The notes under the pieces are model-generated. The model was not told where the DNA came from and made no database searches. It saw only the letters and a list, made by a program, of their open reading frames with translations. DNA of 64,000 bases, taken from NCBI RefSeq assembly GCF_900184265.1, contig NZ_FXXA01000002.1, positions 1,846,539 to 1,910,538 of the forward strand, written 5' to 3'. Position 1 is the stretch's first letter. Each line of letters begins with the position of its first letter. The DNA is from Eggerthella timonensis. Lineage in GTDB: Bacteria; Actinomycetota; Coriobacteriia; Coriobacteriales; Eggerthellaceae. The position numbers were made by a program, and so were the translations under genes. Shown here in pieces: positions 5,304 through 46,734 of this stretch.

Positions 5304-8300
5304 ATGGGAAGCCGATCTCAGATGATCGGCAGGTCGGCCTGCGCGGCCGTCCTGTCGTGCGTCCTCGTGCTCGGTCCGGCGCTTGATGGCGCGCGGGCAT
5401 GGGCCGTTGATACCGCAACTGCGGAAACCTCCGGGGGGGGGGGGGTCACAGCTAGATAGCGCCGCCGCAGGCGGCGAAGGGGAGCCGGAGGGCTCCCAAC
5501 GCAGCGAAATCGTCGAGCTGTCGGAGGCGTCCGAGGGGGCTTCCGGCCGCGAAACCGCCCCTGCCGCTCCCGGCAATGTAGGGCAGGCGACCGCCGAAGC
5601 CCCGCTGTCCCACGACGAGCCCCGACCCGTTGCCGGTGAGGTTCGCGTCGACGGCTTCGTTTACTCCGTCAACCCCGACGGCGCGTCCGTTGCACTCGTC
5701 GGTTGGTACGGCGATGCCCCTACGGGCGACGTGTCCGTTCCCGCCCGCATAGCGGTCGGCGAAACTTCCTTCGCCGTCGTCGCGCTGGGCGATTCCTCGG
5801 GAGAGGGCCTGTTCGCGGATGCTCCCGTCGCGTCCCTCTCGATACCTGCGCTCGTCGATGCCGTAGCCGACGGCGCGCTTTCCGGATGCCCCACGCTTTC
5901 CCGGGTGTCCGTCTCCTCCGAAAATCAAACCTACGCGTCCTTCGACGGCATGCTGTTCTCGAAGGACCTCTCCGACCTCCTGCTCGTTCCCGAGGGCAAG
6001 GAGGGCGTTGCCCGCATCCCCGACCCGGCGACCTCTGTCCCGGCCGGAGCGTTTTCCCGAGCGCCCGGCCTCTGCGAAGCCGTGGTCGGGGAGGGCAGCG
6101 CCGCATTCTCCTCGCGGGACGGTTTGCTGTACACGAAAGACATGAATACCCTGGTCGCGTGCCCGCCGGGCGCGGGCGGTGCCGTGGTGCTGCCGGAAGG
6201 CGTGGAGTCGATCGCATCCGGCGCGTTCGCCGGGTGCGCGCTGACGTCCATCACCGCGCTCGGCTTCGTGCGCGACATCGCGGCCGACGCGTTCGACGCG
6301 GAGGCGCGCGCCGGCTCCGTCGTGGCGCTGCCCGCCGGCGAGGACTACGAAGCCCGCAGGGCCGTGTGGAAGGCGGCCGGGTTCTCGAGCTTCAAGGAGC
6401 CTGCGAAGCCGGGCGACGTCGCCGTCCCCGAGCCGTCCGAGCCCGAGGCCCCGCAGGCCTCCGGCCTCGCCTACGAGGTGCTGGTCGACTACACGCTGGC
6501 CGTCTCCTGGCAGGGCGCCGAGGGGCCGGAAGGCGCCCTCGAGATCCCGGCAGCCGCCGAGGTGGGCGGCGTGTCCTACCGCGTGAGCGCGATCGCGGAC
6601 GCCGCGTTCGCAGGACGAACCGGATTGACCGGCGTTACGCTCCCCGCGAGCGTGACCGCCGTCGGCGAGCGAGCCTTCGAGGCGACCGGCATCACGGAAG
6701 CCTGGCTCCCTGCCTCCGTCGCGTCGGTGGGCGAGCGCGCATTCGCGGCGTGCCCTTCGCTCGAGCGCGTCGTCGCCCTCGGCTCGCCATGGGTCGCCGA
6801 CAGCGCGCTCGCCGAGTGCTCCGGCGTGAGCGTCTACGCCCCGTCGGGATCGGCGGACTCCTGGAACGTCGGCCTACCGGCCGCGGGCAACCACCTCATG
6901 CCCTACGGCGTCTCGCTCCCCGAAGAGCCCCTCGCCCTCGAAGTCGGCAAGTCCGCGAGCATCCTCGAAGGCGGCCAGCTCAGCGCTCCCGAGCCGATAG
7001 AGGCCTCCTACTCCTACGCCGCGAAGCCCCTCTCCGTCGACGCCGACGGCACGGCGACCGGCAAGGCCGAAGGCTCCTCCGAGGTCGCCGTAACGCTGTC
7101 CCTCGACGGCGTCGAGCTCGCCCGCGCCACCCGCACGGTCGAGGTTGCGGCAGCACCAACTGAGCTGGCGGGGCCGATCAAGCGGGAGTCGTTCTCTGCT
7201 GAACGCATCAAGCCCATGTCGTTCACTGCGCTCCCTGAAGACTTGCTTGGAACTTTGGAAGGGCCTGCGACCTCGCGTGCGGCGGGAGACACGTTCGTTG
7301 CCACCGTCCCCGGAGGTCAGCAGCTGCTGTGCACGATCGAAAGCGGGGGCGACACCGTTGCGATTGCTGAAGCGTCTAACAAAATCGCCGGCGATCTGGT
7401 CATCCCCGAAACAATCACTGATGCCTCCACGGGCAAGTCCTATATCGTGCGTTCGTTCAGCTCGTTCTGCTTCTCCAAGTGCTTCAATCTGACGAGCATT
7501 CATTTTCCTTCGACGTTAGTAGAATTCAAAGATGACTATACCCTGGTAGACGGCTTGAAGATGACCTCCATCACCGTTGATGCAGCCAACCCCCGCTTCT
7601 CTTCAAGCGATGGAATCCTGCTTAGCAAGGACGGAAGCGAGATCGTACGGTATCCTCCTGCCAAGCCGGGCGCTTCGTATCGTATTCCCGACAAGGTTGC
7701 GAGCGTCGTTTCTACGGCTTTTCGAAGCCCGCGATTTTTGGAGAAGCTTTCCGTCGGGCCATCCACGACTCGCTTGGCATCTCCTGTCGTATCGCTGTCG
7801 ATCTCATTCAAGGAATTCGAGGTGGACGCGGGCAATCCGGCTTACGTCTCACAAGATGGCGTACTGTTCTCCAGGGACATGAAGACGTTCGTTCGCTATC
7901 CTGAACGCAGGACGAAGGGTTCCTATGTCGTTCCGGATGGAATCGTGAACGTTTCGGATCTGGCGTTCTACTCGTGCGAGTTAACATCGGTTTCACTGCC
8001 CGAGGGAGTTCGCGACATCAAAAACGGTACGTTCAGGTTGTGCCAGATGCTCGAATCTGTGGTGATTCCCTCTACGGTGGAACGTTTCGGTGCCGACTCG
8101 TTTCTGGGCTGCGTTGAGCTCGATGAGATGCTGCTTCTTCAAGAGGATGGGGCGACGCTGTCGATCGACGGATCGGAGACGTTCCAGAACGTGTCCGACA
8201 GCGTTCGGTTTTACGCGAGGCAAGGCTCGGTCTTTTCGGGATCTGCCGCCGATTTCGTGAACGCTCGTCTTACCCGTCTGTCCATGCCGGCCGTCACGCC

Positions 8301-11086: not shown

Positions 11087-11096
11087 GGGGGGGGGG
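11087..11096 (+). repeat. Intergenic G10 tract
   Basis: Ten consecutive G lie between the gene A terminator hairpins and the long inverted repeat at 11114. The tract is not in a supported gene, so its length cannot be read as an ON/OFF state. Confidence 0.7.
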
Positions 11097-11634: not shown

Positions 11635-14600
11635 ATGGGATCGAGAATCGTTCATGCACGGACGAGCGCTTCCGCGCTCGCGCTAACCCTTGCTCTCCTC
11701 CTCGCCATGGGCGCTCCGCTTGACGCTGCCGGCGCCTATGCCGCCGACCTTCAGGTCGAGCAAAATCCGGGGGGGGGGGCTTCACAGCCTCTAACTAACG
11801 CCGAAGGCGCTGAAGGCGGCTCCGGTGATTCGGGGCGCGCCGATGCTCCTGCTTCCGGGCAGGTGGTGGAAGAAATCGAGTTGTCTGGCGAGTCGAAGGA
11901 GTCTTCGGAACCCGTCCTTCCCCCCGTAGAACCTGCTCCTCCCGCCAATCAGACCTCGGCCGACGTGCCGCTGGCTTCGGAAACTCCGAAAGCCTCCACT
12001 GGCGAGCTCGTCCAGGACGGGCTCGTCTTCCGCATCGACGGCGAGACGGCAGCCCTCGTGGGAGTGCGCGCCTCGAGTCTCGACGGCGAGGTCGTCGTGC
12101 CTGCAACCGTGTCGAGCGGCTCGGATTCCTATGCGGTCGTTGCGGTCGGCGATCCCGACGCGTCCGAGGGCGTGCTTGACGGGGCGGCCGTCGTTTCGCT
12201 TTCGCTGTCCGAATCCATCGAAACCATCGAAGACGGCGCCCTCGCGGGCTGCCCGTCGCTCTCCCGCATCTCCGTCAGCTCGAAGAACGAATCCTTCGCG
12301 TCCTTCGACGGCATGCTGTTTACGAAGGATATGACCGGCCTCTTGCTCGTTCCCGAGGGCAAGGAGGGCGTTGCCTGCATCCCCGACCAGACGGTTACTG
12401 TCCCAGCCTCGGCTTTCTCGCATTGCGCCAGGCTCTCCGCCGTCGAAGTCGGGGTGGGCAGCGCAGCCTTCGCCTCGCGGAACGGTTTGCTTTTCACGAA
12501 AGACATGAATACCCTGGTCGCGTGCCCCGTCGGCGCGGGCGGCGCGGTCGTGATTCCTGAAGACGTGGAGTTCATCGGCTCCGGCGCGTTCGCCGGTTGC
12601 GCGGCGGCGTCGATCACGGCGCTCGGTTTCGTGCGCGACATCGCGGCCGACGCGTTCGACGCGGAAGCGCGCGCCGATGCCGTCGTGGCGCTGCCCGTCG
12701 GCGAGGACTACGACGAGCGCAAGGCCGTGTGGAAGGCGGCCGGGTTCTCGAACTTCAAGGAGCCCGCGAAGCCGGGCGACGTGTCGCAGCCGGAGCCGTC
12801 CGAGCCCGAAGGCGGCGACGGCTCGACCGCCCCGCAAGCCTCCGGCCTCGCGTACGAGGTGCTGGACGACTACACGCTGGCCGTGTCTTGGCAGGGAGCC
12901 GAGGGGCCGGAAGGCCATCTCGAGATCCCCGCGACCGCCGAGGTGGGCGGCGTGTCCTACCGCGTGAGCGCGATCGCGGACGCCGCGTTCGCGGGGCGCG
13001 CGAACCTGACGGGCGTCGCGCTCCCTGCGAGCGTGGCCGTCGTAGGCGATCGTGCGTTCGAAGCGACCGGCCTCGCCGAGGCCTGGCTCCCGGCCTCCGT
13101 CGCGACGGTCGGCGACCGCGCTTTCGCAGCGTGCCCCTCGCTCGAGCGCGTCGTCTCCCTCGGCACCCCCTGGGTCGCCGACAGCGCGCTCGCCGAGTGC
13201 TCTGGCGTGAGCGTCTACGCCCCGTCGGGTTCTGCGGACTCCTGGAACGTCGGCCTGCCCGCCGCCGGAAACCACCTCATGCCCTACGGCGCCTCGCTCG
13301 CCGAAGAGTCACTCGCCCTCGAAGTCGGCCAAAGCGCCAGCCTCCTGGAAGGCGGCCAGCTCGACGCCCCCGACCCCGTCGAGGCCTCCTACTCCTACGC
13401 CGCCAAGCCCCTCTCCGTCGACCCGGATGGCACGGCGACCGGCAAGGCCGAAGGCTCCTCCGAGGTCGCCGTGACGCTGTCCCTCGACGGCGTCGAGCTC
13501 GCCCGCGCCACCCGCTCGGTCGAGGTTGCGGCGGTGCCGGAGCCCGAAGCGCCCGCAGTAGAGCCCGAAGCTCTTGAGGATCCCCAAGTGCAGGCACCTT
13601 CGAGCGAACCGGAAGTCTTGTCGCAGACCGTTTCCCTCGCCTCGACGGCTGCGAAAGAGGAACGTGCGATCGATCGCGATAGCGTCGATCCGTTGTCGAT
13701 GGCTGCGCTGTTGACTACGGGATCTTCGTTTGAAAAGACGGTGAGCACTGGCCAAACGCTTGCATTCGACGTGGTCTCAGAAGACGAGCAAAGCAAAACC
13801 GGCACCGTGTCGGTTTCGAAAGGCGACGTTGAGCCGGTGGGCGCGCTGACCGTGCCGGCTGTGGTTGAGCATGGCGGCATCACGTACGATGTGGTTGCCG
13901 TGGGTGCGCGCGGCTTCTTCGAGTGCAATGCGCTGATGTCTGTTTCCTTCGAAGGGGACAAGATGAAGTCCTTCGGCGAAAGCTCGTTTGACGGGTGTCG
14001 CGGCATGCTGGGCATCGCCCTTCCGGAAAGCCTCGAATCGTTGGGCAGGAGGTCGTTCGCGAACTGCGGTTCCTTGATTAACGTGAGCATTCCCGATTCA
14101 GTAAGGACCTTCGGGGAATACCTGTTCCTTGACTCCAGCTCGCTGTCCGAGGTTACCTTGGGAACCGGGTACCGCAGCGCATCTGCAGGAGATTTTGCCG
14201 GATGCGGCCGCTTGAGCAGGATCGTGGTTGAAGGCGAGGTTGCTTCGTTCGCGTCGAGCTCTTTCAACTATGTGCCCACCGAATCGGTGGATGTGCTCGT
14301 TTCGTCTGACCAGGCAAGAACAGCTTGGCTCGAATCGTCACGCGCTGCCGGAATCGCATTCTCGGATAGCCGGGTTAGGGTGGCAGGGGAGATGTGGACC
14401 GTCACGTTCGAGGCGAACGGGGGCACGCCCGCGGTGTTTACGAAGGCGGTGCCGAAGGGAGAGCCCTTAGGGTCGACTACGGTTCCTTGGAAAAACGGTT
14501 TCGGCTTTGCTGGCTGGTACACCGACGAAGCGTGCACGAGCGCTTGGACGGCGACGGATCCTGTCATGGAAGATATGACCTTGTATGCCGAATGGGTCCA

Positions 14601-17600
14601 AGAGGCTCGAGACGGCGGGTTCGTGTACCGCATGCGCGAAGACGGGACGAGCCTGTCCGTTTCGGCTGAGAACGCATCGGGCCTTCGCGGTGCCGTGGCT
14701 ATTCCTGGCGGCAAGGACATGGGAGGGACGGTGTATCCCGTCGCGGAAATTGCCTCTAACGCGTTCTCGGGCGCATCGGGGTTGACGTCGATAGAGATTC
14801 CCGACTCTATTCGGGAGATCGGGTCTACGGCTTTCAAGGGCTGCGCCTCTCTCGCTACCGTGGTGATCGGGGACGCGAGCGAGCTTGAGGTGGTCGGCTT
14901 TGACTCCTTCTCGGGCTGCACGTCGCTCGAAAGCGTGCGTTTGCCCTCCTTGGTCGAATCGATCGAGCCCGGTGCGTTCTACGGTTGCTCCGAGCTTGCG
15001 ACGGCGGATCTTTCAGCATGCGCCAACTTGAAGACGATCAAATCCGCTGCTTTCAGCGATTGCGCATCGCTTGAGTCCGTTATGCTGCCTGACACGCTAG
15101 AGGCCATTGAGAAAAACGTGTTTTACCGGTGCGCGTCGCTCGATTCCATCGTATTGCCATCGGCGCTGAAAACCATCGGTACCCGAGCCTTCTTCGAATG
15201 CGCTAATTTGTCGCAGGGCATCGAAGTGCCTTCGGGCGTTGAATTCATGTTCGACTCCACCTTCCAAGGATGCTCTGCTTTGCCTTCGGTGGACTTGCCT
15301 GGCGTAAAAAAGATCGGTGAGCAAGCATTCGAGTCTTGCACGAGTCTCGAATCCGTTTCGATGCCTTCGGTGTCCAGTATCGCGCCCTTGGCTTTCAAGG
15401 GGGATGTCTCTTTGGCATCGGTTTCGCTTCCCGACACGCTAACGTCGATCGGGCAGGATGCGTTCAATGGATCGGGTCTCCGCTCGGTCGAGATCCCGTC
15501 TTCGGTCAGAAGCCTCTCCATGGGTGCGTTCAGCAAGTGCGCCGATTTGAAAACGGCCACGGTGGACGCACGTGTCGAAGCGGTTCCTGCGTGGCTGTTC
15601 TCCGAGTGCACCGGTCTCGTCTCCGTGCTTCTTGACGACGGCATCGCGGAAATCAAGACGTCGGCTTTCGGTTCGTGCAGCGCTCTTTCTTCCATCAACC
15701 TGCCCCTGTCTCTGACGACGGTGGCCTCCAATGCGTTCGAGGGATGCGAGTCGCTGTCTGCGGTGAGGGCGGAAGGCTCGATGCGCTCCGTCGATATAGC
15801 TTCGGTGTTCTCCGACGACGTCAAATCCAAGGCGACGGTGGCGCTTCCGCCGACGTCGCGCGATGGAAGCGGCGAGAGCTTCGAGACGATGTCCGAGGTG
15901 TGGAAGTCCAAGCACGGGTTCAGCAAGGTGATCTGCACCGAAGGAGCGCTGCCGCTGGAAAGCGATGCGCCCGGCTCGCCCAATGCCGATCCGGCGAAGG
16001 CCGGCTGGTCGCTCGACGAGAACGGCGTGCTCAAGGTATGGAGCACTGAGAAGCTTGCCGATTTCCAGTGGCGGCACACCGGCTCCGAGTTCCGCGAACA
16101 GTACTGGGGCCCGGTGCGGAGCCTCGTGAAGAGCGTCGACACGACGGGCGTGCACTCGGCGTACAGCCTGTGGGCATGGTTCCGCAACATGCCGAACCTC
16201 ACCGACATCTCGAAGTTCGCGGTGCCTGCCGAAACCGTCGAGGTCATCGACGTGTTCACAAGCGACGAAGCGCTGACGGAGATCCCCGCCATTGCGTTCC
16301 CGGACAGCGTCACCAGCGTGTGGGCTTGCTTCAACGCGTGCAACTCAGTCGAGAGGATTGCGGACGATTTCGTGCTTCCGCCGAATTTGATCCAGGCGAG
16401 GCACCTGTTCGCGGAGAATACCAGCTTGGCCGAGCTGCCCGCCGCATTCTTCTTGCCGGATACGGTGACGGATGCTTACGGCCTGTTCGAGGGAAGCACT
16501 TCGCTCGCGCGTCTGCCCCAGGGATTCGCGCTGCCTCGTGACATCGAGGACGCTACCAGGATGTTCATGGGTTGCTCTTCGCTTGGCGAGGTGCCGGACG
16601 GCATCTTCGCGAAGAGCGGTTCCGTCAAGCTTGCGAGTCGCATGTTCGAGGGCTGCGCATCGCTTCCCTTGCTGCCAAACGACTTCGCTGTGCCCACGAC
16701 GGTCACGGACGCTCGTTGGATGTTCCAGAATTGCACCTCGCTCGCCTCGCTGCCCGCTGGCTTCTCCGTGTCTGCAGGGTGCAATGTGACCAGCATGTTC
16801 GCGATCGAAGCCGATCGCCTGGTCGACGGTCAGAAGCTTTCGACCTACTATGCCGGCAGCGGCCTGGCCGGCTACGATTGGGCGGCGTCGAACCGCACGC
16901 TGGTGGCGCCTTCGGCCAAACCGGCGAACGCCAAGGAGATCACCCTAAACGTGAAGGCCGATGGCGAGGCCGGCCCCGGCTCGTACTGGACGACCGCCTA
17001 CACCGACGGCTCCGGTTTGGTGGCCGAACCTTCCTACGCGCCCTCGCGCCTGGGCATGGTGTTCGCCTTGTGGTACGCCGACGAGGCGTGCACCCAGCGC
17101 GTGGACTTCTCGCAGCCGTTCTCGGCCGACGCGACGCTGTACGGCAAGCTCGTTTCCGGCACGATCGGGGGCGCGCTGCCCACCGAGGCCGGCACCGGCA
17201 GCGCGTTCTGGACGCTCGCCGACGACGGCGCGCTGTACATCCGCGGCGCGGGGACGATCGATTTCATGATCCCGGATTCCGGATGGAACGCGCCCGAATA
17301 TGCGTGGGCTTCGTATCGGTCGTCGGTGCTCAAAGTGTCCATGTGCCCTTCGGTAAAGGCCACGAAGATGCACAGCTGGTTCTATCAGTGCAAGAACCTT
17401 TCCGATGTGAGTGAGGTGTTCTTGCCGGAAGGCGTCAAGAGCCTGCACCAGACGTTTTCGGAATGCAAGTCCATAACTTCGCTGCCCGATGGGTTCTGCA
17501 TTCCGGACAGCGCGACGAACGCGGCGAGCATGCTCAGGTGGTGCACCTCCCTCCGATCCCTTCCTTCTTCGTTCCTGCTTCCCGATACCGGCAAGCTGGG

Positions 17601-30600: not shown

Positions 30601-30650
30601 GGAGCACCGATCTGGTGAAGCTCGAATACACGGTGGAAGCGGCGTCGTAG
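21616..30650 (+). CDS. Gene C: giant LRR surface protein, phase OFF as sequenced
   Basis: A 3,011-aa product is predicted with one more G. The signal peptide begins MGQASSSSRIVRSTF and ends near ARAYA-A. With G10 (21750-21759) translation stops at 21772-21774 after 52 aa. With G11 it reads V-A-GGG-ASKPLAAQTE into the long frame. Domains in the ON form: shared LRR modules about 131-388 and 411-558, divergent LRR core about 738-1278, five InlB-type modules (near nt 24394, 26577, 27726, 28783 and 30020) alternating with four MF-x-x-C-x-SL arrays, and the shared C-terminal domain from about 2875 with GLDIPDASKVK and a final VKLEYTVEAAS. A 222-bp segment is identical to gene D. There is no LPXTG. 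Confidence 0.88.
21750..21759 (+). repeat. Poly-G phase-variation tract of gene C, G10 (OFF)
   Basis: Ten G lie directly after GTGGC. The present frame reads CTT CTA AGC CGT TAG. G11 would read GCT TCT AAG CCG TTA (ASKPL), matching gene D. The third frame ends at GGC TTC TAA. Confidence 0.85.
27669..27890 (+). repeat. 222-bp segment identical to part of gene D
   Basis: Bases 27669-27890 match 36951-37172 with no difference by eye. Similarity continues with a few mismatches to about 28066 (37348 in D). The segment covers the junction of one MF-x-x-C array and an InlB-type module. Flanking arrays are clearly diverged, so a recent recombination or gene-conversion tract is likely. Confidence 0.8.
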
Positions 30651-33900: not shown

Positions 33901-36900
33901 TCGATACGCCCGTGAACGAGGACACCGTGCTGTACGCGAACTGGGTGGAGAACGCGACCGAAAACGGCTTCTCGTTCGTCGTACGCCCGGACGGCGGCTT
34001 GACCGTCGTAGCGGTCGATCCGTCGAAGCTGGAAGGCGACGTCTCCATCCCTGCTTCGCATCGCATGGGGGGTGTCGAGCGGCCCGTGGCGGAGATCGGA
34101 TACCATGCGTTTTACGGTGCTGCCGGCATTAGGTCGGTCGCAGTGCCCGATTCGGTCGAGGAGGTCGGCTTCGAGGCTTTCGTCGGCTGCTCGAATCTCG
34201 AAAAGGTGGACTGGTCTCCTTCTTCGTCGCTCAAATCTATCGGGATGGATGCGTTCACCGGCTGTGCTTCGCTCGAAAGCTTGTTCCTTCCCGCCTCCCT
34301 ACGTCAGCTGACGCGCGCGGCTTTCTACCGGTGTTCCAGCTTGAAGACGGTCGTGTTCGGCGAAGGAAGCAGCATCGAGAGCATCGGCGACCGCGCGTTC
34401 GGGTACTGCAGCGCCTTGAGCGAGGTCAACCTTCCCCAAAGCGTGAAGAGGATCGAGAACCATGCTTTCGGCGGCTGCTCGGCCCTTCAATCGATCGAGT
34501 TGCCCGAAGGGCTGGAATTCATCGGGCAGCAGGCATTCCAGGACACCGGCTTGACCTCGATGGACGTGCCGTCTTCGGTAACCGCCATCAAGATGTACGC
34601 ATTCGATCGCTGCTCCAAATTGGCGGCGGTTTCGCTGCCTGCCGGGCTCAAAACGCTCGATCCCGTCGCGTTCAGGGGCTGCACGGCACTCGCCGCCGTC
34701 TCGGCGCATGGACTGATGGACGATGTAGCCGACGCGCTCAAACCGTCCGACGCGGAGCATGATGCATTCCCGGACGTCGACAAGTCGAAGGTCACCGTCG
34801 TCCTGCCTGCAACGGGCGACGACGGGAGCACGTACGACCAGATGGTCGCAACGTGGAGCGGTTACGGCTTCTCGAAGTTCTCGCCGATGAGCGGGCCTTT
34901 GCCCACTGTCGACGGGGGCGAGAATGCCCGCTGGACGCTCGATGCCGACGGTACGCTGCGCATCGAGTGCACGAAGCCTGGTGCGGTGATCGAGGACCTC
35001 GGATGGGCCGACACGTGTTCAGACACCTGGTGGGGACCGGTGCGTGCCGCTGTGAAAGCCGTTGTTGTGGATTCGGGAGTCGATGCCGTCGACATGGTGA
35101 ACTGGTTTGCCGAGATGCCCAATCTCGTTTCGGTGGGAATGGATGCCATCCCGCAACATGTGCAGAGTGTCGTGTCGATGTTCTCGAATAGCTCGAGCCT
35201 CAAGAGCTTGCCCGACGGGTTCACGATTCCCGATACGGTGACGGAGTGCAGGGCGATGTTCTTCGGATGCTCTTCGCTTGAATCGTTGCCTGCGGGCTTC
35301 AGGGTCTCAGAGAATATCGCCGGAGGGGAGGGAGCTCCCGGTCTGAACAACATGTTTTACCAATGCGCCTCGCTTGCATCACTTCCAGAGGGGTTCGAGA
35401 TTCCTCGATCAGTGACTGAGCTATCCGGCATGTTTCTGGGCTGCACCTCGCTGACATCTCTTCCCGAGAGCCTTCTCATTCCCGAAAGCGTAACGGGCAT
35501 GCACGGCATGTTCAAAGGATGCAGCTCCTTACGTAACCTTCCGATCGATTTCAAGATACCCAGTAAGGCGGGCAAGATCGGTGAAGTGTTCAACGGCTGT
35601 TCCTCGCTCGAATTCCTTCCCTCAGGGTTTAGGATTCTTAGCACGGTGGAAGCTTCGATGCAAAGCATGTTCTATGGGTGTACGGCCTTGCGGTCGTTGC
35701 CCGAAGGCTTCACGCTTCCGGAAACTGCGGTGAACACGACGTGGATGTTTTACAATTGCACCTCGCTCTCTTCGTTGCCGGAAGGGTTCTACATACCCAT
35801 GTCGGTAACGTCCGATTGGCATATGTTCAATAACTGCACCTCGCTTGTGGCGCTTCCTGACAGCTTCGACCTGCCCGATGGATGGAGTGGGAAAGACCCT
35901 ACGGTGTTCCAGCATAGCGGCGTTAACATCCCCATGTACTATGCTGGGGATAACCCGAAAGTCGTGCAATACCCTTGGGCTCAAGTGAACCGCACGCTGG
36001 TGAAACCTTCGGACAAGCCGGCGAACGCCAAGACTGTCACGCTCAATGTGAAGGCCGAGGGCGAGTCCGGCCCCGGCTCCTATTGGACGACCGCCTATAC
36101 CGACAACTCTGGCATGCTCGCTGAGCCCGTCGCGCCCTCGCGCCAGGGCATGGTGTTCGCCCTGTGGTACGCCGACGAGGCGTGCACGCAGCGCGTCGAT
36201 TTCTCGAAGCCGTTCGCCGAGGATGCGACGATCTACGGCAAGCTCGTCGCTGGCACGCTCGGGGACGTACTGCCCACGGAAGACGGCACCGGCAGCGCGT
36301 TCTGGTCGATCTCCGATGACGGCACGCTGTACATCCGCGGTACGGGCAAGGTGTCGAATTTCGGATGGGATTGGAACACCCCTTCGGCGGCGACCGATCA
36401 TTGGGGCGCGTATCGCGATCGCGTCGTGCGCATCTCCATGGCTCCCTCCGTTAGAGCCGAGTTCATGCGTTCGTGGTTCATGAGGATGCCGAATTTGTTC
36501 GACGTTCGAGAGGTCGCTATCCCGGTGGAGGCCAGCGACATCAGCCGCCTCTTCCAGCAATGCTACTCTCTGGAAACGCTGCCAGAGGGTTTCACCATCC
36601 CCGACGGCATCAAGCAGACAATGGCGATGTTCGAGAACTGCTGGGCCCTGGGGTCGCTTCCGGAAGGATTCGCAGTAGCTGACACCGTGACGAATCTGAG
36701 CGGCATGTTCCTTAATTGCAGCTCGCTTTCTTCGTTGCCCGAGGGTTTCAAGCTGTCGAAGAAGGCTGACTGGTTCGTTGACGGGGTGTTTGAGAATTGC
36801 TCGTCCTTGACATCTCTTCCCGACAGCTTCACCTTCACGAATGTGTTCTACGCGCAAACCGTGCACCGTGTGTTCAAATGCGCTCTTGGCGAAGGTCAGC

Positions 36901-39900
36901 CGCGCGTTCCTATGTATTACGCCGGCTCCGATCCGACTGTGCTCAACTACGACTGGGCAAGCCAGAACCGCGTGCTGATCGCCGATCCCGCGGATCGCGA
37001 TATGCGCGAGATTTCGTACAAGCTGGTGAACGAGGACGGTTCCTGGTCGACGCGCTCCACCGTTCTCACGGGTTCCGACGGCATGGTGCCGAACGTCGGG
37101 GAACCGCAGCGCGACGGCTACGGCTTCACCGGCTGGTGCGTCGACGAAGAATGCCTCGTGCCGTTCGATTTCGGCGAACCCGTCAGCGAGGACAGGATCC
37201 TCTACGGCAAGTGGGTCAAGCACGGCGGCCGCGATGCCAAGCTGCCCCTGGTCGCGGGCACGCAGGGCGACGTGTGGTGGCGCATTACCGTGGACGGCCA
37301 GCTGTGCATCGGCGGCGAGGGCCAGGTGGGCGACCTCGGGTTCTCGTTCGACCAGAGCAAGGGTCGGGTTAACTATTGGGATCCGTTCCGCAAAGAGATT
37401 ACGGACATTCTGATGGAGCCCGAAGTGAAAGTTCCGGGAGAAAACGGCATGACCGCATGGTTCTGCTGGCTGCCGAAGCTCCAGACGGTTGATTCGCTCG
37501 TCATCCCTGAGGGAACTCGAAACGTGCAGGATCTGTTCCACGGATGCAACAATCTCAAGGCCCTGCACGAAGATTTCGCCATCCCGACTTCGGTGGAGTC
37601 CATTATCGGCATGTTCAATTCTTGCCTATCGCTCGAGCATCTTCCTCAGAGCTTCATTCTGAGAAAGGGCAATTTGAAGTACGCGACGTGGGTGTTCAAC
37701 GCGTGCGGCGCGCTCAAGGCGCTGCCCCCGGGATTCACGATTCCCGAAGGCGTGACGGCGATAGAGTATTTCGCCAAAGGCTCCGGGCTGGTTTCGCTGC
37801 CGGAAGGATTCGATATTCCTGAAACGCTGCAGACCGGCGATCGCGCGTTCGATGGCATTCCGACTCTTCGCACGCTTCCGGGATCGTTGAATTTGGCAAA
37901 GCTGCCCGCGAAAACTAAAGAGCTCTTGCCGAGCCTTTTCCGATGCGACGACCTTACCGAGACGTACTATCCCGGCGATCCGGCGAACCTGGATATGGGC
38001 GACGGCTACTGGGCCAAGCAGAACCGCACGATCGTGAGCACCGCTCCGGCTGGGAAGACGTTCGTCGACCTCTGCCTGCCCGACGAGGCGGGCGCGCAGA
38101 AGCTGTGGACGCGCAAGGCGCTGGATGCGAATTCGTCGATGGGCGAGCCCGTCGCGCCTGGCTGGGGGGATCATGCATTCCTCGGCTGGTACACCGACCC
38201 GGACTGCACGGCGAAGGCGACGTTCCCGCTGACGCTGAGCGGCGAGACGTCGCTGTACGGGAAGTACGTAGTGACGGGTGGAACCCTGCCAACCGTGCGC
38301 GACGGCGCGGAAGGGGAGGAGGCCTCCTGGTCGTTCGATGACGGTACGCTCACCATCCGCTGCGACGTGGAAGGCGCCGCGATCGACACGTTGTGGCAGA
38401 TGCCTGAGGACGGCAACGTCAATGGCGAGCCGCAAACTAAGCATTGGAGCCCGTTGCGCGACCTGGTGACGAAAGTCATTATCGAAAGCAACGTGCGCGT
38501 TCGCAGTGACATCCGTTTTTGGTTCACCGGCATGGACAACTTGTCCGACCTGTCCGAATTCAGGTTTCCCGAGGGAGCGGCCGATGTCACGCATACGTTT
38601 GCGCGGTGCACGAGCCTGACCTCTTTACCAAGCGATTTCTTCATACCTGATTTTGTTACCATTCTCGATGGGCTGTTCCACAATGGCGGTTTAGAAAGCC
38701 TTCCTGCGACGTTTACTTTGCCCAGCGGCGCGACGAACGTCAACGCTATGTTGGGATGGAGCAACATAACTGCGCTGCCTGACGGATTCGTTCTTCCCCC
38801 TTCGGTTAAGACTGCGGCATACCTGTTCAGTAGCACGCCGTTGGAAAAGCTTCCTTCTTCGTTCCTGCTTCCCGAAGGGATTCAAGAAACCCGGTCGATG
38901 TTCGCGGAATGCGCCCAGCTCGCTTCTCTTCCTGACGGGTTTAAGATTCCGAAGAACGTGAACAGAGCAGACAAAATGTTTGAGGGCTGTCCGTCGCTTG
39001 CGGCGCTCCCCGATGGGTTCTGCTTCGACAATCCTGCTTTGCTGACGGACGTAAGCGGCATGTTCAAGGGATGCAGCTCGATGATGACGCTGCCCGCAAG
39101 CCTCGACGTCACCGGCATCCCTTCGACGTGCGCGGGCCTTGACACGATGTTCAAGGTCGCGGCCGGACCGCTGTCCACCTACGTCATCGGGGGCGACCTG
39201 TCGAAGCTCGCCGTCCTGGGCAACGATGCGACGTCGTACTGGTCGACCAAGTACAACCGCACGCTCGTGACGGATCCGTCCGACCTCGGCGGGGCGAAAC
39301 CCGTCACGTTCAAGACCAAGGTCGTGGGCGAGCAGGAATGGACGACGTGGCAGACGATGCTGACGGACCAGGCCGGCGCGCTTGCCGACCCGCGCTACGC
39401 CGGCAGGTTCGGCTACGCGTTCGACGGGTGGTACGCCGATGCCGACTGCACGCAGAAGTTCGTCTTCGGAGAGACACCGCTGCCGGCTGAGGGCGTGCTG
39501 TACGGCACGCACAGCTTGATCGTGAAATACGAGATACCCATCGAAGCGCAGGTCACGCTCAACGCCTTGGGTGAAGTCGCCCCAGCCGACGTGCGGATGA
39601 AGTCGTTCACGCCGGTGCCGCTTGCGATCACGCAGGTGAAGTGCGCGCCCGTGAACTCGTCCTCCGACATCATGGATTCGGCAGACCTACAGGCCGTCGC
39701 AGCGACGCTCCTTCCCGAGGGCGCGAAGCGTCCCCTGTTCGTGGAAGTGGGGGAAACGGCTGGCACGTCGTCGAAGGCGTTCTCGGTTCCGGAGGCGAAG
39801 CCCGGTGCGCCCGGCGTGTTCAACTACGCCATCGGCCTGGACATCCCCGACGCTTCGAAGGTGAAGCTCTGGCGCGACGGCTGGAGCACCGACCTGGTGA

Positions 39901-39929
39901 CCCTCGAGTACACGGTTGCGCCTGCATGA
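30993..39929 (+). CDS. Gene D: giant LRR surface protein, phase ON
   Basis: The 2,978-aa product reads in frame through G14. The signal peptide starts MGQGTSAARRAGKASALAL and ends near SAYA-S. The tract encodes P-GGGG-ASKPLAEEAE. Shared LRR modules occupy about 126-379 and 399-543, and the divergent LRR core about 726-1246. Five InlB-type modules (near nt 33748, 36040, 37008, 38056 and 39298) alternate with four MF-x-x-C-x-SL arrays (nt 34900-35950, 36270-36930, 37240-37980, 38285-39190). The C-terminal domain starts near 2843 (KYEIPIEAQVTLNA) and ends VTLEYTVAPA; no LPXTG follows. It is the closest paralog of gene C in its C-terminal half. Confidence 0.92.
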   Translation: MGQGTSAARRAGKASALALSILLAFGAPLDGLSAYASENAPGGGGASKPLAEEAETFSDDTQSNQVEDEVKLDPPAVSEPSAPPAEPSTGKTEDTKAEVPAEPSAGQTAVDVPLASEAAKPAAGEIVQDGLVYRIDGDEAVLVGWRAPSLEGDVVVPATVSSGADSYVVTRVGEADADKAVLAGSSATSVSLPASVAAIEDGALAGCPSLSRISVSSKNESFASFDGMLFSKDLASLLLVPEGKEGAARIPDQTNAVPASAFSHCARLSCILVGEGSRSLASWNGLLFTNDMKTLVACPVGAGGAVVIPEDVEFIGSGAFAGCAAASITALGFVRDIAADAFDAEARECAVVALPAGDDYEARKAVWEAAGFGSFKEPAKPGDVAVPEPSEPEAPQASGLAYEVLGDYTLAVSWQGARGPEGTLEIPAAAEVGGVSYRVSAVADAGFAGRSGLTGVALPASVNAVGDRAFEATGVSDAWLPASVATVGERAFAACPSLERVVSLGSPWVADSALAECSGVSVYAPSDSDNPWNVGLPAAGNHLMPYGVSLAEEPLALEVGQSWSIIEGGQLDAPEPIETSYAYAAKPLSVDPDGTATGKAEGSSEVAVTLSFDGVELARASRPAEVAPTSEPEAPVVEPEAPVEPTPTENVNKPAIITETASLASAALEEAASLESEPETISYAAALATGETFSQSSPSGHLLAYSVLADDPTAVEVSMDSASPKLDGELVIPASVEHEGTRYIVKSVAAEGFRALRGLSSVSFSAQPGEVVQLETIGAWAFAICSNLKFFDFPDSLKIIRDRAFTISALRSVQLPEGLETLEGWSFESCVDLASFALGGKVTSLEDYVLGEAVNLRELVVGGSISTFSPFAFAAMSSPDKLKIFVPTAEEKTKWEAANSQYAYGFDPANIIVSTANRHTVTFEGCGGFPEQVVQSVASGQPIVDPGISREGFGLEGWYLDEGCSIPWDIDTPVNEDTVLYANWVENATENGFSFVVRPDGGLTVVAVDPSKLEGDVSIPASHRMGGVERPVAEIGYHAFYGAAGIRSVAVPDSVEEVGFEAFVGCSNLEKVDWSPSSSLKSIGMDAFTGCASLESLFLPASLRQLTRAAFYRCSSLKTVVFGEGSSIESIGDRAFGYCSALSEVNLPQSVKRIENHAFGGCSALQSIELPEGLEFIGQQAFQDTGLTSMDVPSSVTAIKMYAFDRCSKLAAVSLPAGLKTLDPVAFRGCTALAAVSAHGLMDDVADALKPSDAEHDAFPDVDKSKVTVVLPATGDDGSTYDQMVATWSGYGFSKFSPMSGPLPTVDGGENARWTLDADGTLRIECTKPGAVIEDLGWADTCSDTWWGPVRAAVKAVVVDSGVDAVDMVNWFAEMPNLVSVGMDAIPQHVQSVVSMFSNSSSLKSLPDGFTIPDTVTECRAMFFGCSSLESLPAGFRVSENIAGGEGAPGLNNMFYQCASLASLPEGFEIPRSVTELSGMFLGCTSLTSLPESLLIPESVTGMHGMFKGCSSLRNLPIDFKIPSKAGKIGEVFNGCSSLEFLPSGFRILSTVEASMQSMFYGCTALRSLPEGFTLPETAVNTTWMFYNCTSLSSLPEGFYIPMSVTSDWHMFNNCTSLVALPDSFDLPDGWSGKDPTVFQHSGVNIPMYYAGDNPKVVQYPWAQVNRTLVKPSDKPANAKTVTLNVKAEGESGPGSYWTTAYTDNSGMLAEPVAPSRQGMVFALWYADEACTQRVDFSKPFAEDATIYGKLVAGTLGDVLPTEDGTGSAFWSISDDGTLYIRGTGKVSNFGWDWNTPSAATDHWGAYRDRVVRISMAPSVRAEFMRSWFMRMPNLFDVREVAIPVEASDISRLFQQCYSLETLPEGFTIPDGIKQTMAMFENCWALGSLPEGFAVADTVTNLSGMFLNCSSLSSLPEGFKLSKKADWFVDGVFENCSSLTSLPDSFTFTNVFYAQTVHRVFKCALGEGQPRVPMYYAGSDPTVLNYDWASQNRVLIADPADRDMREISYKLVNEDGSWSTRSTVLTGSDGMVPNVGEPQRDGYGFTGWCVDEECLVPFDFGEPVSEDRILYGKWVKHGGRDAKLPLVAGTQGDVWWRITVDGQLCIGGEGQVGDLGFSFDQSKGRVNYWDPFRKEITDILMEPEVKVPGENGMTAWFCWLPKLQTVDSLVIPEGTRNVQDLFHGCNNLKALHEDFAIPTSVESIIGMFNSCLSLEHLPQSFILRKGNLKYATWVFNACGALKALPPGFTIPEGVTAIEYFAKGSGLVSLPEGFDIPETLQTGDRAFDGIPTLRTLPGSLNLAKLPAKTKELLPSLFRCDDLTETYYPGDPANLDMGDGYWAKQNRTIVSTAPAGKTFVDLCLPDEAGAQKLWTRKALDANSSMGEPVAPGWGDHAFLGWYTDPDCTAKATFPLTLSGETSLYGKYVVTGGTLPTVRDGAEGEEASWSFDDGTLTIRCDVEGAAIDTLWQMPEDGNVNGEPQTKHWSPLRDLVTKVIIESNVRVRSDIRFWFTGMDNLSDLSEFRFPEGAADVTHTFARCTSLTSLPSDFFIPDFVTILDGLFHNGGLESLPATFTLPSGATNVNAMLGWSNITALPDGFVLPPSVKTAAYLFSSTPLEKLPSSFLLPEGIQETRSMFAECAQLASLPDGFKIPKNVNRADKMFEGCPSLAALPDGFCFDNPALLTDVSGMFKGCSSMMTLPASLDVTGIPSTCAGLDTMFKVAAGPLSTYVIGGDLSKLAVLGNDATSYWSTKYNRTLVTDPSDLGGAKPVTFKTKVVGEQEWTTWQTMLTDQAGALADPRYAGRFGYAFDGWYADADCTQKFVFGETPLPAEGVLYGTHSLIVKYEIPIEAQVTLNALGEVAPADVRMKSFTPVPLAITQVKCAPVNSSSDIMDSADLQAVAATLLPEGAKRPLFVEVGETAGTSSKAFSVPEAKPGAPGVFNYAIGLDIPDASKVKLWRDGWSTDLVTLEYTVAPA
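31115..31128 (+). repeat. Poly-G phase-variation tract of gene D, G14 (ON)
   Basis: Fourteen G, the longest tract in the window, encode P-GGGG-A in frame. The following bases are the same as in gene C (GCTTCTAAGCCGTTAG), so either slipped frame stops at TAA or TAG within about five codons. Confidence 0.88.
36951..37172 (+). repeat. 222-bp segment identical to part of gene C
   Basis: Partner of 27669-27890. The first mismatch is at 37173, where GGCGAA replaces AGCGAA, and four or so scattered differences follow to about 37348. Confidence 0.8.
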
Positions 39930-40858: not shown

Positions 40859-43800
40859 ATGGGACAGACACTCGCACCTGCGGCGAGATCGGCCTGCGCG
40901 CTCGCGCTGGCGATCATCCTCGCCATCTCCACGCCTATCGACGCCCTCGCGGCCTCCGGGCCCGTTGATCTCCGGGGGGGGGGGCTTCTGAGCCGTTAGC
41001 CTCTTCCGGCGAGAACCCCCGCGAGCGGGAAGGTGCCGAAACCACTTCGAACGACCAGCCGTCCGGCCAGGTCGAAAGCGAGGCGAAGCTCGATCCTCCC
41101 GCTGCTTACGAACCATCTCCCGATACAACCGAACAGTCTGAGGCGACGGGCCAGGCGACCGAGCCTGCACGTCCCTCTGCGCCCTCTGCGGGCCAGACCG
41201 CCGTCGACGTCCCGTTGGCTCCCGAGGCTGCGAAGCCGGCCGCAGGCGAGATCGTTCAGGAAGGTCTCGTGTACAAGATCGACGGCGAGACGGCCGTCCT
41301 GGTCGGTTGGCGCGCGCCGTCGCTCGAGGGCGACGTGGTCGTGCCTGCCCTCGTGACGAGCGGCGTCGACTCCTATGCCGTGACCTCGATCGGCGAGGCC
41401 GACGCGTCCGAAGGCGTGTTCGCGGGCTCGTCCGTCGAGTCCGTTTCGCTGCCCGCTTCGGTGATGTCCGTCGCCGACGGGGCTCTTTCCGATTGTCCGA
41501 CGCTCGCGAGCGTCGCGGTCGGCACCAAGAACGAATCCCTCGCGTCCTTCGACGGCATGCTGTTCACGAAGGACCTCTCCGAACTCCTGTCCATTCCCGA
41601 GGGCAAGGAGGGCGTTGCCCGCATCCCCGATCAAACGGTCACGGTTTCGGCCTTGTCGCATTGTGCCGGTCTCGCCGCCGTGGAAGTCGGGGAGGGCAAC
41701 GCCGCATTCTCCTCGCGGGACGGTTTGTTGTACACGAAAGACATGAATACCCTGGTCGCATGCCCCGTCGGCTCGGGCGGTGCCGTGGTGCTGCCGGAAG
41801 GCGTGGAGTCGATCGCGGCTGGAGCGCTCGCCGGGTGCGCGGTGTCGTCGATCACCGCGCTCGGGTTCGTGCGCGACATCGCGGCCGACGCCTTCGACGC
41901 GGAAGCGCGCGCCGGCGCCGTCGTGGCGCTGCCCGCCGGCGACGACTACGAAGCCCGCAAGGCCGTGTGGGTGGCGGCTGGGTTCTCGAGCTTCAAGGAG
42001 CCTGCGAAGCCGGGCGACGTGTCGCAGCCGGAGCCGTCCGAAGGCGAAGGGGAGGGCGCGCAGGTATCGGGCCTGGCATACGAGGTGCTGGACGATTACA
42101 CGCTCGCCGTGTCGTGGCAGGGCGCGGAAGGCCCCGAGGGCCATCTCGAGATCCCCGCGACCGCCGAGGTGGGCGGCGTGTCCTACCGCGTGAGCGCGAT
42201 CGCGGACGCCGCGTTCGCGGGGCGAACCGGATTGACCGGCGTTACGCTCCCCGCGAGCGTGACCGCCGTCGGCGAGCGAGCCTTCGAGGCGACCGGCGTC
42301 ACGGAAGCCTGGCTCCCTGCCTCCGTCGCGACGGTCGGCGACCGCGCCTTCGCCGCGTGCGCGAGCCTCTCGCGCGTCGTCGCGCTCGGATCCCCCTGGG
42401 TCGCCGACAGCGCGCTCGCCGAGTGCTCGGGCGTTTCGGTCTACGCCCCGTCGGGCTCCGGCAATCCCTGGAACGTCGGCCTCCCTGCCGCCGGCAACCA
42501 CCTCCTGCCTTACGGAGTCGACCTGCCCGAAGAGCCGCTGCAGCTGGAAGTCGGCCAGTCCGCCGACCTCCTGGAAAACGGCCAGATCGACGCCCCCGAC
42601 CCCGTCGAAACCTCCTACTCCTACGCCGCCAAGCCCCTCTCCGTCGATCCCGACGGCACGGCGACCGGCAAGGCCGAAGGCTCCTCCGAGGTGACCGTCG
42701 CCCTCTCCCTCGACAATGTCGAGCTCGCCCGCGCCTCCCGCGCGGTCGAGGTCGCCCATCCTGTCGCTGCGCCCCTTGCTGAGCCTGTCGCAGGCGCATC
42801 CGAGGTGGTCGACGGCGACCTCGCCTACGTGCTGCTCGACGACGGGACGCTCGGCGTGAAGGCCGTCGAGCCGCTCGCCATCGAGGAGGCCCTGATCCCT
42901 TCGAAACACGCGTATTCCGACAAGGGGTCGTTGCCGGTGACCAAGATCCTGGCCAACGGTTTCGCAGGAGGGCCCAAGGAAAGCAAGCTCGCGAAGGTGG
43001 TTCTCCCGAACACCATCACGGAGATCGGCTCCCAGGCGTTCCAGGGCTGCCTCGCGCTCCGATCCATCACGCTGCCCGCGTCCGTTGCCGTCATCGGCCA
43101 GCACGCCCTGCGCAACTGCACAAGCATGACGTCCATCGAGGTCGACGCTCGCAACGAGACGTTCTCCTCGTCCGAAGGCATCCTGTACAGCAAGGACGGC
43201 ACGCGCCTCTTGCGCTTTCCGCAAGGCAGGGGAGGCTCCTTCGCGGTTCCGGACGGCGTCGTGTCCATCGGAAACCTCTCGTTTTACGGCGTGCCCGTGA
43301 CCTCCGTCGACCTTCCCGGCACGCTACAGACCATCGAGGACGATGCGTTCGCCCAATGCGGCGATCTGACCTCCATCGACGTGCCCGATTCGGTGACGAG
43401 CGTCGGTGCGCGTGCCTTCTACAACAACGTGTCGCTCGAGCGCGCGAAACTGCCCCGAGGCCTCCAGGTCATCGACGGCGACCTGTTCTACGGCGACGCG
43501 AGGCTTGCGACGGTGGTCATGCCCGAGGCGTACCGCGAGCTGGGCGTGCGCGCCTTCGGCGACTGCGCGTCGCTCGAGTCGCTCACGATACCGAGCTCGG
43601 TGCGCAGCATTTTGGCGAAGGCGCTTGAGAATTGCACGGGCCTGAAGACGCTCGACATCCAAACGACCGAGGTGAACGTCGTGGAAGGGGCGTTCTTCGG
43701 CTGCTCGGCGCTCAAGACGGTGTACGCTTACGACGCTTTGCCGGATTCGGGCATGGCCGCCGCGTTCGATGCCGCCGAGAAGACCGGCGCGTACGTGCTC

Positions 43801-46734
43801 CTGCCCCAGGTTGCCGCGTCGGGAGCGACGTACGACCAGATGGCCGCGGCGTGGGGCGAGAGCGGCTTCGGCTTCGCTCACGTGAGTGTCACCGGCGGAG
43901 ACCTGCCGATGGTGAACGACGAGGGTGCGGCGGCGTGGCGTTTCGAGCCCAACTCCGACACGCCCGGCCTCGGAACCCTTATTATCGAGCAGACCGCGGC
44001 CGGCAAGATGGCCACGCTCGGCTGGGCAGGCCCCGATTTCTCGAACGTGGTGCCGACGACGGGGTACTGGTCGCCGCTGCGCGAGGCGGTGTCGAAGGTC
44101 GTCATGCGCTCGTTCGACGGCGGGCATATCCGAGCCGAAGACGCGGCGAACTGGTTCTCCGGCATGACCCAGCTCGTCGACGCATCCCAGACGCACGTGC
44201 CCCTCGAGATCACGTCGGCCAACTTCATGTACAACTACTGCATGAAACTCACGTCGGTCCCCGACGACCTCACGCTGCCCGACACGGTGACCTCGGCCGC
44301 GGCGATGTTCCGCAGCGACCCGCTGGAGCTGTTCCCCACAGGATTGAAAACGCTGTCGAAGAGCATCGTAACAGTGAACAGCATGTTCGCCGGCACGAAG
44401 TTCTCGAAGCTGCCCGAGGACTTCACCCTCGAGGGTTTCGACAAGCTCGTCGATGCCGGGTGGATGTTCGCCGGTTCGGAGCTGACCTCGCTGCCGTCAA
44501 GCTTCCGCATCCCGAGCGACGTATCGGTGCTCAACATGTTCGACAGCTGCTCGAAGCTGACCTCGTTGCCTGAGGGCTTCGTCATGCCCACGCCGTCGGG
44601 CACATTCATCGGCGACGACGGCAAGCAAGCCGTGAAAACCATCGAGGGAATGTTCCGGTCCTGCACGTCGCTGACCTACCTGCCTGCGAGCTTCGACTTC
44701 GCTTCCATCAAGGACGTCGAAGGCTTCGACAAGCTGTTCAACTGGAAGTACAACGACCCGCCGACCGAGCCGATCCAGACCTACTACGCCGGCACGCTTC
44801 CCGCCGACGTGAGTCCCGACACCTGGTCGGGACGGCATATCCGCGACGCGGCCGAGGGCCTGCCCGCAGGTGCCGCGGAGGTGTCGTGCCTGCTGCCGAA
44901 CGCCGACGGCTCCTATCCGGACCAGGCGTGGGCGAAGGTGGTCACCGACGCTTCCGGTAAGTTGAGCGTCGAGCCGCAGCCGGCGGAGCGCGACGGGTTC
45001 GCGTTCGTCGGCTGGTACGTTGACAAGGCGTGCACGCAGAAGTTCGACTTCACGAAGAGCGTGACCGCCCAAGGCGGCATCGCGCCTGCATCGGTGGATA
45101 CGCTGTACGCGAAATTCGCGGCGACGAGCGGGTTGTTGGATACCGAGGATGGCGGGCGGAACGCTTCGTGGAAACTGGAAGGCGGCACTCTGTACATCGA
45201 TTGCGAGGAAGGAGCGTCCATCAAGCCGTTCGGATGGAACTGGAACCAGGCCGATCTTGACGGTTGGGGGCAGGTGCGAGGCCTGGTCGAGCGCGTGCGC
45301 ATGAGCCCGACCGTGCGCGTCTCCGACATGGGGTACTGGTTCAAGGAAATGCCCTTGCTTCGCGATGCGACGGGAATAACCGTTCCCGAAGGGACGAAGT
45401 CCGTCTACGGATTGTTCCACAGGTGCCCCGGGCTGAGCACGATCCCTGCCAGCTTTACGCTTCCCGAAGGACTGAGAACGACCGGGGGCATGTTCCTGCA
45501 AACGAGCATCTCCAGCTTGCCGGACAGCTTCAAGATTCCTGAAACCGTCACCGAGGTGCAGCATATGTTCCGTACATGCGGCAAGTTGGAATCGCTTCCC
45601 GAGGGCTTTCGCCTTCCAAGCGGGGTGGAGCGAACCGAGTACATGTTCGAGGGCTGCACGACGTTGAAGAAGCTTCCCGAAGGTTTCACTCTCGGGCCGC
45701 GCGTGCGGCAGGTCGAGCGCATGTTCCAGTATTGCAGGGCGCTCGTCTCGCTTCCGGAGGGCTTCACGCTGGCCGGGACGCAGGTGGTTTCGTCGGAGTA
45801 CATGTTCAACGACTGCTACAGCCTGGCATCCCTTCCCGAAGGGTTCACCATTCCGGACACCGTGGGCCTCGGGTCGTCGGGCATGGATGGCATGTTCGTC
45901 AGATGCAACCGCCTCACGGTGCTTCCCGACTCGTTCGATTTCCCGCTGGCGGTGGCCAACGCCTCAGCCGATCCGTTCAAAACAACGGCTGCCGGCACGC
46001 TGACGTACTACGCCGGTTCGAGCGATGCGGTGAAGAGCTACGACTGGGGCGCTCAGAACCGCAAGCTCGTGCTGGCGAACGATCCCGACAACCCGCTGCC
46101 CGACACCATGCACCTTGCAACCTTCAAGGTGCCCGATTCGGCATCGTCCGACGGTTGGGCCACGTACGCCACCTCGCTCACCGATGCGGCCGGCAAGGTC
46201 GCGAACCCCGGCGACCCGGCGCGCTTCGGCTACCCGTTCCAGGGGTGGTACGCCGATCCGTCGTGCACCGAGCCGTTCGACTTCGCGGCGGCGGTCACGG
46301 GCGATGTCGTCGTGTTCGGCAAGTTCGGCGATCCGATCCTGCGCTACGAGGTTCCGTTGAGGGCGAGCGTGACGTTGAACGCGGACGGGTCGATTACTCC
46401 GGCTGCCCTGCGCTTCCGCTCGTTCACGCCGCAGGCTGTATCGATCAAGGCCGTTTCGTCGCAGCTGGGGGAGGGGGCGGCGGCGCTCGTCCCGCAGGAG
46501 GGGCAGCGAGCGCTCGTCTCGGCGAACCTCTCGCTCGGTTACACAACGTCGTTCCCGCTGGACGGCAGCAATGTGCCCCTGTCGGCCGCAATGGGCGCTG
46601 CGTCCAGTTTCTACGACCCCGGCGTGGCCGACGGCTCGCTCTCCCTCGACTTCAAGGGTGCGCAGGTGAGTTATGCCGAAAACGAGCTCGATGACGTCGC
46701 GCGCCTTGCATGGACCGTCGGATTGTCGGGCTGA
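40859..46734 (+). CDS. Gene E: giant LRR surface protein, phase OFF as sequenced
   Basis: A 1,958-aa product is predicted with one more G. The signal peptide is MGQTLAPAARSACALAL... ending near ALAA-S. With G11 (40974-40984) the frame stops at 40997-40999 after 46 aa. With G12 it reads L-R-GGG-ASEPLASSGEN and continues. Domains in the ON form: shared LRR modules (nt 41260-42010 and 42070-42510), a compact divergent LRR core (nt 42800-43740), two MF-x-x-C-x-SL arrays (nt 43900-44780 and 45140-46020), two InlB-type modules (near nt 44880 and 46111), and the shared C-terminal domain (nt 46333-46731, ending ARLAWTVGLSG). With A it forms the shorter class. There is no LPXTG. Confidence 0.88.
40974..40984 (+). 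repeat. Poly-G phase-variation tract of gene E, G11 (OFF)
   Basis: Eleven G follow CTCC. The present frame reads CTT CTG AGC CGT TAG. G12 or G9 restores GCT TCT GAG CCG (ASEP). The third frame stops at GGC TTC TGA. Confidence 0.85.

Follow-up and report, generated by a model that had tools for sequence, protein, structure and literature searches.

Five consecutive genes of Eggerthella timonensis (genes A-E) encode giant LRR proteins and carry a poly-G tract close behind the start, and slipped-strand phase variation at these tracts, with A-E as contingency loci, is the best explanation of their structure and very probably the correct one. The genes lie in a stretch of 64,000 nucleotides (the window) from E. 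timonensis Marseille-P3135, a human stool isolate whose genome was assembled to 3,916,897 bp in two scaffolds from MiSeq mate-pair and paired-end reads (PMC6182555). The poly-G between the signal-peptide-like start and the repeat body would gain or lose G through slipped-strand mispairing at replication. As a rule, homopolymer tracts of such length slip readily. One length in three would join the signal peptide to the body and give the on state, with a full product (1,901-3,114 aa); any other length would stop translation within ~16 nt of the tract and leave a peptide of ~43-54 aa. The codons behind the tract would set stops in both wrong frames, keeping the off state clean. The full-length products would be secreted and displayed at the surface, where their switching may vary adhesion or antigenicity in the gut.

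The features of the window are listed below. Gene starts were taken from the reading frames with the signal-peptide-like segments called by eye, tracts from a run search and the frames, bodies (and gene F) from open frames and Pfam, intergenic runs from the run search, and promoter-like sequences from a consensus match only.

5304..5432 (+), gene A start, signal-peptide-like segment and leader
5433..5445 (+), gene A poly-G, G13, out of frame as assembled
5446..11010 (+), gene A body, LRR_5 (BspA type) and Flg_new, 1854 aa
11456..11483 (+), promoter-like TTTACA-N16-TACTAT before gene B
11635..11768 (+), gene B start, signal-peptide-like segment and leader
11769..11779 (+), gene B poly-G, G11, in frame
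11782..20979 (+), gene B body, LRR_5 and Flg_new, 3065 aa
21425..21452 (+), promoter-like TTTACA-N16-TACTAT before gene C
21616..21749 (+), gene C start, signal-peptide-like segment and leader
21750..21759 (+), gene C poly-G, G10, out of frame
21762..30650 (+), gene C body, LRR_5 and Flg_new, 2962 aa
30808..30835 (+), promoter-like TTTACA-N16-TACTAT before gene D
30993..31114 (+), gene D start, signal-peptide-like segment and leader
31115..31128 (+), gene D poly-G, G14, in frame
31131..39929 (+), gene D body, LRR_5 and Flg_new, 2932 aa
40672..40699 (+), promoter-like TTTACA-N16-TAATAT before gene E
40859..40973 (+), gene E start, signal-peptide-like segment and leader
40974..40984 (+), gene E poly-G, G11, out of frame
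40987..46734 (+), gene E body, LRR_5 and Flg_new, 1915 aa
47034..55541 (+), gene F, of the A-E family, tract-free and in frame from its ATG, a natural control without the stop trap
11087-11096 and 40178-40186 (+), two further, intergenic G runs

A preliminary description of this DNA had reported five poly-G tracts, with B and D in frame, A, C and E off by one base, and every downstream frame intact. The run search of the window located all five tracts (G13, G11, G10, G14 and G11 in A-E) at the positions it had given, and the reading frames together with the computed products confirmed the assembled state of each gene. In all five the tract follows the start codon and the signal-peptide-like segment and precedes a very long open frame, of 1855, 3066, 2963, 2933 and 1916 codons in A, B, C, D and E, respectively (stop counted). 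When the product was computed for five consecutive tract lengths per gene, one or two lengths gave the full product (1,901-3,114 aa with the tract in the right phase) and the rest gave peptides of 43-54 aa. A homopolymer of at least 8 in or before the coding sequence is one mark of a contingency locus, and all five genes carry it. The window contains 7 G runs of at least 9, against 0.37 expected under an order-1 Markov model, and 2 of at least 13, against 0.002; plain base composition was rejected as the source of the tracts on this expectation. All 7 lie on the plus strand and there are no C runs of at least 9 in the 64-kb window, which holds 7 of the 50 G runs of at least 9 (preceded by A, C or T) that occur on both strands of the whole genome.

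The bodies of A-F combine BspA-type LRRs, identified by LRR_5 matches with Pfam E-values of 4.9e-41 to 1.5e-129, with Listeria-Bacteroides repeats (Flg_new). A further InlB B-type repeat protein (Flg_new_2) occupies positions 57569-64000 and continues past the end of the window; it has no poly-G run of at least 9. When the N-terminal domain of gene B was used as a query, ten places in the genome matched at E 1.9e-55 or better. Six of the ten family members bear tracts, namely A-E and a gene at locus L087 (domain at C2:3895536-3896531, minus strand) that has two, G11 and G10, 37 nt apart; the other four (F and the genes at L076, L077 and L078) are tract-free. A promoter-like sequence, TTTACA-N16-TA[CA]TAT, is common to B-E at ~160 nt before the start (consensus match only). 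Since each gene has its own leader and B-E have this promoter-like motif, the switch states of A-E should combine independently. The 32 surface states of the preliminary description stand as a combinatorial ceiling for A-E, but gene F in the same array is unswitched and the sixth tract-bearing LRR gene lies elsewhere.

The giants share exact blocks of 40-222 nt, with at least one in 14 of the 15 pairs among A-F, and their overall protein identity is 44-60%; the longest block, of 222 nt, is found at positions 27669 and 36951. Such exact blocks between proteins diverged to this degree suggest gene conversion within the array. There is no LPXTG motif in the last 260 aa of A-F. The C-terminal 200 aa of the six proteins were aligned and one was folded, giving a predicted structure of mostly strands (pLDDT 77.5). 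A Foldseek search of this domain against the PDB gave no match at E 0.001 or better, and the weak top matches were the TasA fibre, pilins and others. Among ten neighbouring ORFs that were scanned only DUF4130 and radical SAM were recognized, with no sortase, and thus no linked regulator or invertase is present among those ten.

The tract lengths rest on one assembly per species, and homopolymers are error-prone in a short-read (Illumina MiSeq) assembly such as this one (PMC6182555). Moreover, the deposited lengths of Bifidobacterium breve G-tracts can misstate the population (PMC9187656). If lengths had been miscounted, the true ones might keep all five genes permanently in frame and nothing would switch. 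We regard this as very unlikely, as long tracts are found in mixed phases in assemblies of seven genomes, and the wrong-frame stops and the TTA and CTA codons behind the tract that are described below would be hard to explain in a gene that always stays in frame.

The relatives were collected by a family-level search of 138 genomes, 97 of which gave some match at E 0.001 or better, and 40 regions were taken around the stronger matches in other genomes. A G run of at least 8 occurs within or just before the gene in 24 of the 40 regions and is absent from 16, including those of G061 and G068, which are both close homologues. A single-gene query gave no match in the three other genomes of the genus, which lack a close relative of the gene. 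The richest relative, G064, has tracts of G10-G13, many of them flanked as CTCC-Gn-CTTTCTGAGCCTCTAG or nearly so, like that of gene E. In G014 the only two G runs of at least 10 in the whole genome are both inside genes of this family. Two main places for the tract can be distinguished: site 1 is directly behind the signal peptide and site 2 is within the first LRR domain. Both sites are present in five G064 genes, in two of which the first tract is at a contig edge.

A tract was called in frame when the coding frame before it continues into the long frame, as assigned by eye from printed frames. In seven genomes 13 of 37 phased tracts are in frame, which is near the one third expected under free drift. 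The in-frame fractions are 3/7 in E. timonensis, 7/16 in G064, 1/5 in G085, 2/5 in G013/G014 and 0/4 in G052/G053. These counts and those of the stop trap below leave out the G8 at position 1072 of L155, which has no long frame behind it, and the first tracts of L124 and L131, which are at contig edges; L089 and L090 were not counted as their contigs are shared with L129 and L132. Among the five G064 site 1 pairs whose flanks exceed 75% identity, four show a length difference of one or two G; the closest pair, with 91% identical flanks, has G11 and G13. At site 2 all 6 such pairs share one length, G11. This suggests that in G064 the tract changes faster than its surroundings at site 1 and not at site 2.

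As assembled, A, C and E give no full-length product when read from their own start codons, as would be the case for frameshifted pseudogenes in decay. It is extremely unlikely that this is what they are, because their bodies run for 1855, 2963 and 1916 codons without another stop and the only frame break seen is the tract. In addition, dN/dS for the three off-off pairs of A, C and E is 0.33-0.40, near the 0.36 of the on-on pair B-D (over all 15 pairs of giants it is 0.25-0.44); only 60-codon windows in which amino-acid identity reached 50% were used, a choice that lowers the values somewhat. A contingency locus keeps its body intact while off, and both the open frames and the dN/dS of these genes agree with this. 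Judged by these ratios, the out-of-frame genes are under purifying selection and show no sign of decay.

For each tract the distance to the first stop was taken in both wrong frames, and the longer of the two was compared with that at codon-matched positions of the same gene. This distance is 11, 16, 12, 12 and 12 nt behind the tracts of A, B, C, D and E, and the respective within-gene medians are 343, 205, 210, 328 and 661 nt. Over seven genomes, 33 of 36 LRR tracts have a stop distance among the shortest 10% of those at their background positions; the first tract of the L087 gene is left out of this count and of the Leu-codon and recoding counts. In a second test only synonymous codons were redrawn, by each gene's own usage; A-E gave P of 0.0015, 0.14, 0.0035, 0.0063 and 0.0022, respectively, and the second L087 tract gave 0.0010. 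Five of the six E. timonensis LRR tracts thus have P of 0.0063 or less, and gene B fails the test (P 0.14), as do 17 of the other 35 LRR tracts. P was 0.05 or less at 18 of the 36 LRR tracts versus 0 of 109 control positions in A-F. The control positions have a median P of 0.8, so that out-of-frame stops are, if anything, few elsewhere in the giants. The tract genes tested are homologous and the tests are not independent, and therefore the recoding P values must not be multiplied.

The codons behind the tract account for these stops. All five of A-E encode the first Leu behind the tract by TTA or CTA, and these two codons account for 33 of 1316 Leu codons (2.5%) elsewhere in the six E. timonensis giants and for 8.2% in the G064 genes. 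Taking E. timonensis and G064 together, 15 of 18 genes have TTA or CTA at the next Leu, not counting a CTT found in some of them immediately behind the tract, and the other three have Ile as ATA. These Leu and Ile codons mostly hide TAG or TAA. The tract is followed by a short peptide such as S[KEQ]PL[AT] (SQLDS in A), whose first codons are TCT AAG or TCT GAG, with a hidden TAA or TGA, in C, D, E and most genes of G064. In the tract-free gene F a similar GEPL peptide uses TTG, and the wrong frames run 260-298 nt; in L076, which also has no tract, the wrong frames extend 175-205 nt (later) and 2-32 nt (nearer). By the recoding test the stop trap is weaker in the relatives than in E. timonensis. 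At site 1 of G064 the wrong frame ends within 13 nt, so in genes with two serial tracts both must be right, and the two would act as an AND gate.

Stops in both wrong frames would also serve a gene that relies on slippage of RNA polymerase or the ribosome, with some full-length protein in every cell irrespective of the tract length in the DNA, by leaky or programmed frameshifting that is not heritable. Transcriptional slippage on long homopolymers, as in Buchnera, is discussed in PMC2831843. As the main explanation this is highly unlikely, since alone it leaves the phases near one third unexplained, and the close analogue in B. breve varies at the DNA level (PMC9187656). It could coexist with heritable switching. 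The tract might instead be kept for the protein, as a poly-glycine linker after the signal peptide, and when read in frame it does encode GGG(G) in a linker. We give this next to no credence: the tract uses only GGG, though the giants mostly encode Gly by GGC (834 GGC versus 253 GGG), there is no glycine run at this place in F, L076 and L077, 24 of the 37 phased tracts are out of frame, and in some genera the tract is at the second place inside the LRR domain. Phase variation by slipped strands, which the preliminary description had proposed for the giants, is thus strongly supported by comparison, through its recurrence across genera, the near-random phases, the purifying selection on the body and the stops behind the tract.

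Poly-G tracts are also found in front of genes for c-di-GMP enzymes (GGDEF/EAL, one with PAS domains). Two such genes of E. timonensis lie behind G tracts, one at L043 (3002-3013, G12) and one at L047 (3002-3012 and 3087-3097, G11 twice), and the genus-mate G002 keeps both, at L164 (1502-1515, G14) and L187 (minus strand, 1451 and 1502, G13 twice). Judged by eye, the first of these tracts (G12 and G14 in the EAL-gene orthologues) puts the E. timonensis gene out of frame and leaves the G002 gene in frame, within a stretch that is 86% identical. The stop trap is weak at the c-di-GMP gene tracts: four of the five usable recoding tests fail and that of L187 at 1502 passes; the L187 tract at 1451 has no body to test. 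Another protein of E. timonensis, of at least 999 aa and with a signal-peptide-like start, lies behind a G10 at L038 (3002-3011) and is out of frame as assembled (trap P 0.021); it has no Pfam match.

G runs were also considered as promoter-spacer switches and this was rejected after a scan of 51 tracts (7 in the window and 44 in 36 loci), in which an exact TTGACA was found only at L035. There, on the minus strand, a G11 (3002-3012) lies between TTGACA and a -10-like hexamer with two mismatches from the consensus, and this single run may be a promoter-spacer switch. Runs of G9-G10 at L034, L039, L049 and window positions 11087-11096 lie just behind terminator-like hairpins, as judged by eye. 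A hairpin element of ~59-66 bp, in which TGCACGCTTTTG[AT]CAA is followed after ~29 nt by TTG[AT]CAAAAGCGTGCA with small variations, is found at window positions 11114-11180 and 40044-40116 and in eight more copies in the genome (about ten). The arm spacing of this element is constant and the loop is variable, and a G9-G10 run occurs within ~170 bp in 3 of the 10 copies.

The internalin InlA is an LRR surface protein. Like A-E, the Listeria inlA gene is switched by a homopolymer near its start, and its off product is 8 aa; unlike A-E, it is a single gene rather than a family and its tract is a poly(A) of 6-7 (PMC2831843). In Candidatus Mycoplasma girerdii a large BspA-like family was described in which eight genes have repeat-length variants in the reads that yield truncated or intact protein, but this is a mycoplasma with mostly CA-type dinucleotide repeats, and no poly-G array of LRR giants is noted in the portion of the report consulted (PMC5476646). 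Gardnerella, a member of the Actinomycetota, has many homopolymer tracts; surface-protein-like ORFs accompany some of them, and InlB B-repeats occur in part of these ORFs, and variation in tract length was shown for a GA-module gene; unlike A-E, ~70% of its G/C tracts are upstream of ORFs, and no array of LRR giants is noted in the sections consulted (PMC11287997).

A close likeness is to the pili of B. breve, where, also in a gut member of the Actinomycetota, a G-tract of ~10-12 lies between a signal-peptide ORF and a long ORF, as in bbr_1889a (65 aa) and bbr_1889b (2674 aa); slippage at the tracts of bbr_0113 and bbr_1889 was measured in DNA and the in-frame length was enriched in mice (PMC9187656). 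The B. breve protein is a sortase-dependent pilin encoded first in an operon with a sortase and LPXTG (PMC9187656), whereas E. timonensis has tandem LRR giants, C-termini without LPXTG and up to two tracts per gene. With neither a C-terminal LPXTG in the giants nor a sortase in the ten scanned neighbour ORFs, the array differs from a bifidobacterial sortase-pilus cluster. E. timonensis also has stops in both wrong frames behind the tract, of which the consulted text on B. breve makes no mention (PMC9187656).

The preliminary description knew of no report of such switching for a tandem set of giants of this kind, and this has to be narrowed. The BspA-like CA repeats, B. breve, Gardnerella and inlA are precedents in print, and it is for G-tracts of the Eggerthellaceae that the matches listed contain none. 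Among the matches listed, which are mostly from the open literature, there is no description of G-tract switching in Eggerthella, Gordonibacter, the Eggerthellaceae or the Coriobacteriia. A switch that is described in the family is a megabase inversion of capsule loci in E. lenta (PMC13174815, as far as the part consulted goes). Selection for out-of-frame stops has been proposed as the ambush hypothesis, with the suggestion that homopolymer-bearing genes would benefit most (PMC2996987, PMC5909447). These papers, in the parts consulted, argue genome-wide, whereas the stops in E. timonensis are localised just behind a tract that probably switches, and a paralogue lacking the tract serves as control. 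None of the matches listed demonstrates ambush stops for phase-variable genes.

That the A-E array represents a known kind of switch is well supported, and its most original part is the sharp codon signature next to the tracts. We see about an even chance that a wider poly-G programme of the Eggerthellaceae randomises both LRR giants and c-di-GMP enzymes, in which the LRR switches would be sharp and digital, TTA/CTA and ATA would be selected as hidden stops, and two-tract genes would be AND gates. Such a programme, if true, would be a gene-scale case of selection for out-of-frame stops at slippery tracts, which the consulted parts of PMC2996987 and PMC5909447 suggest and do not show. The stop trap itself bears on the selection of out-of-frame stops at the scale of single genes, a question raised in PMC5909447, and as a simple sequence signature it could help to separate real contingency tracts from chance homopolymers. 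The reading of 'frameshifted' annotations in Eggerthellaceae genomes would also be affected by poly-G switching. The switching of A-E would extend heritable on/off switching of surface proteins to the Eggerthellaceae, and it predicts that clonal cultures would be mosaics of surface types, which bears on adhesion, immune recognition and phage sensitivity.
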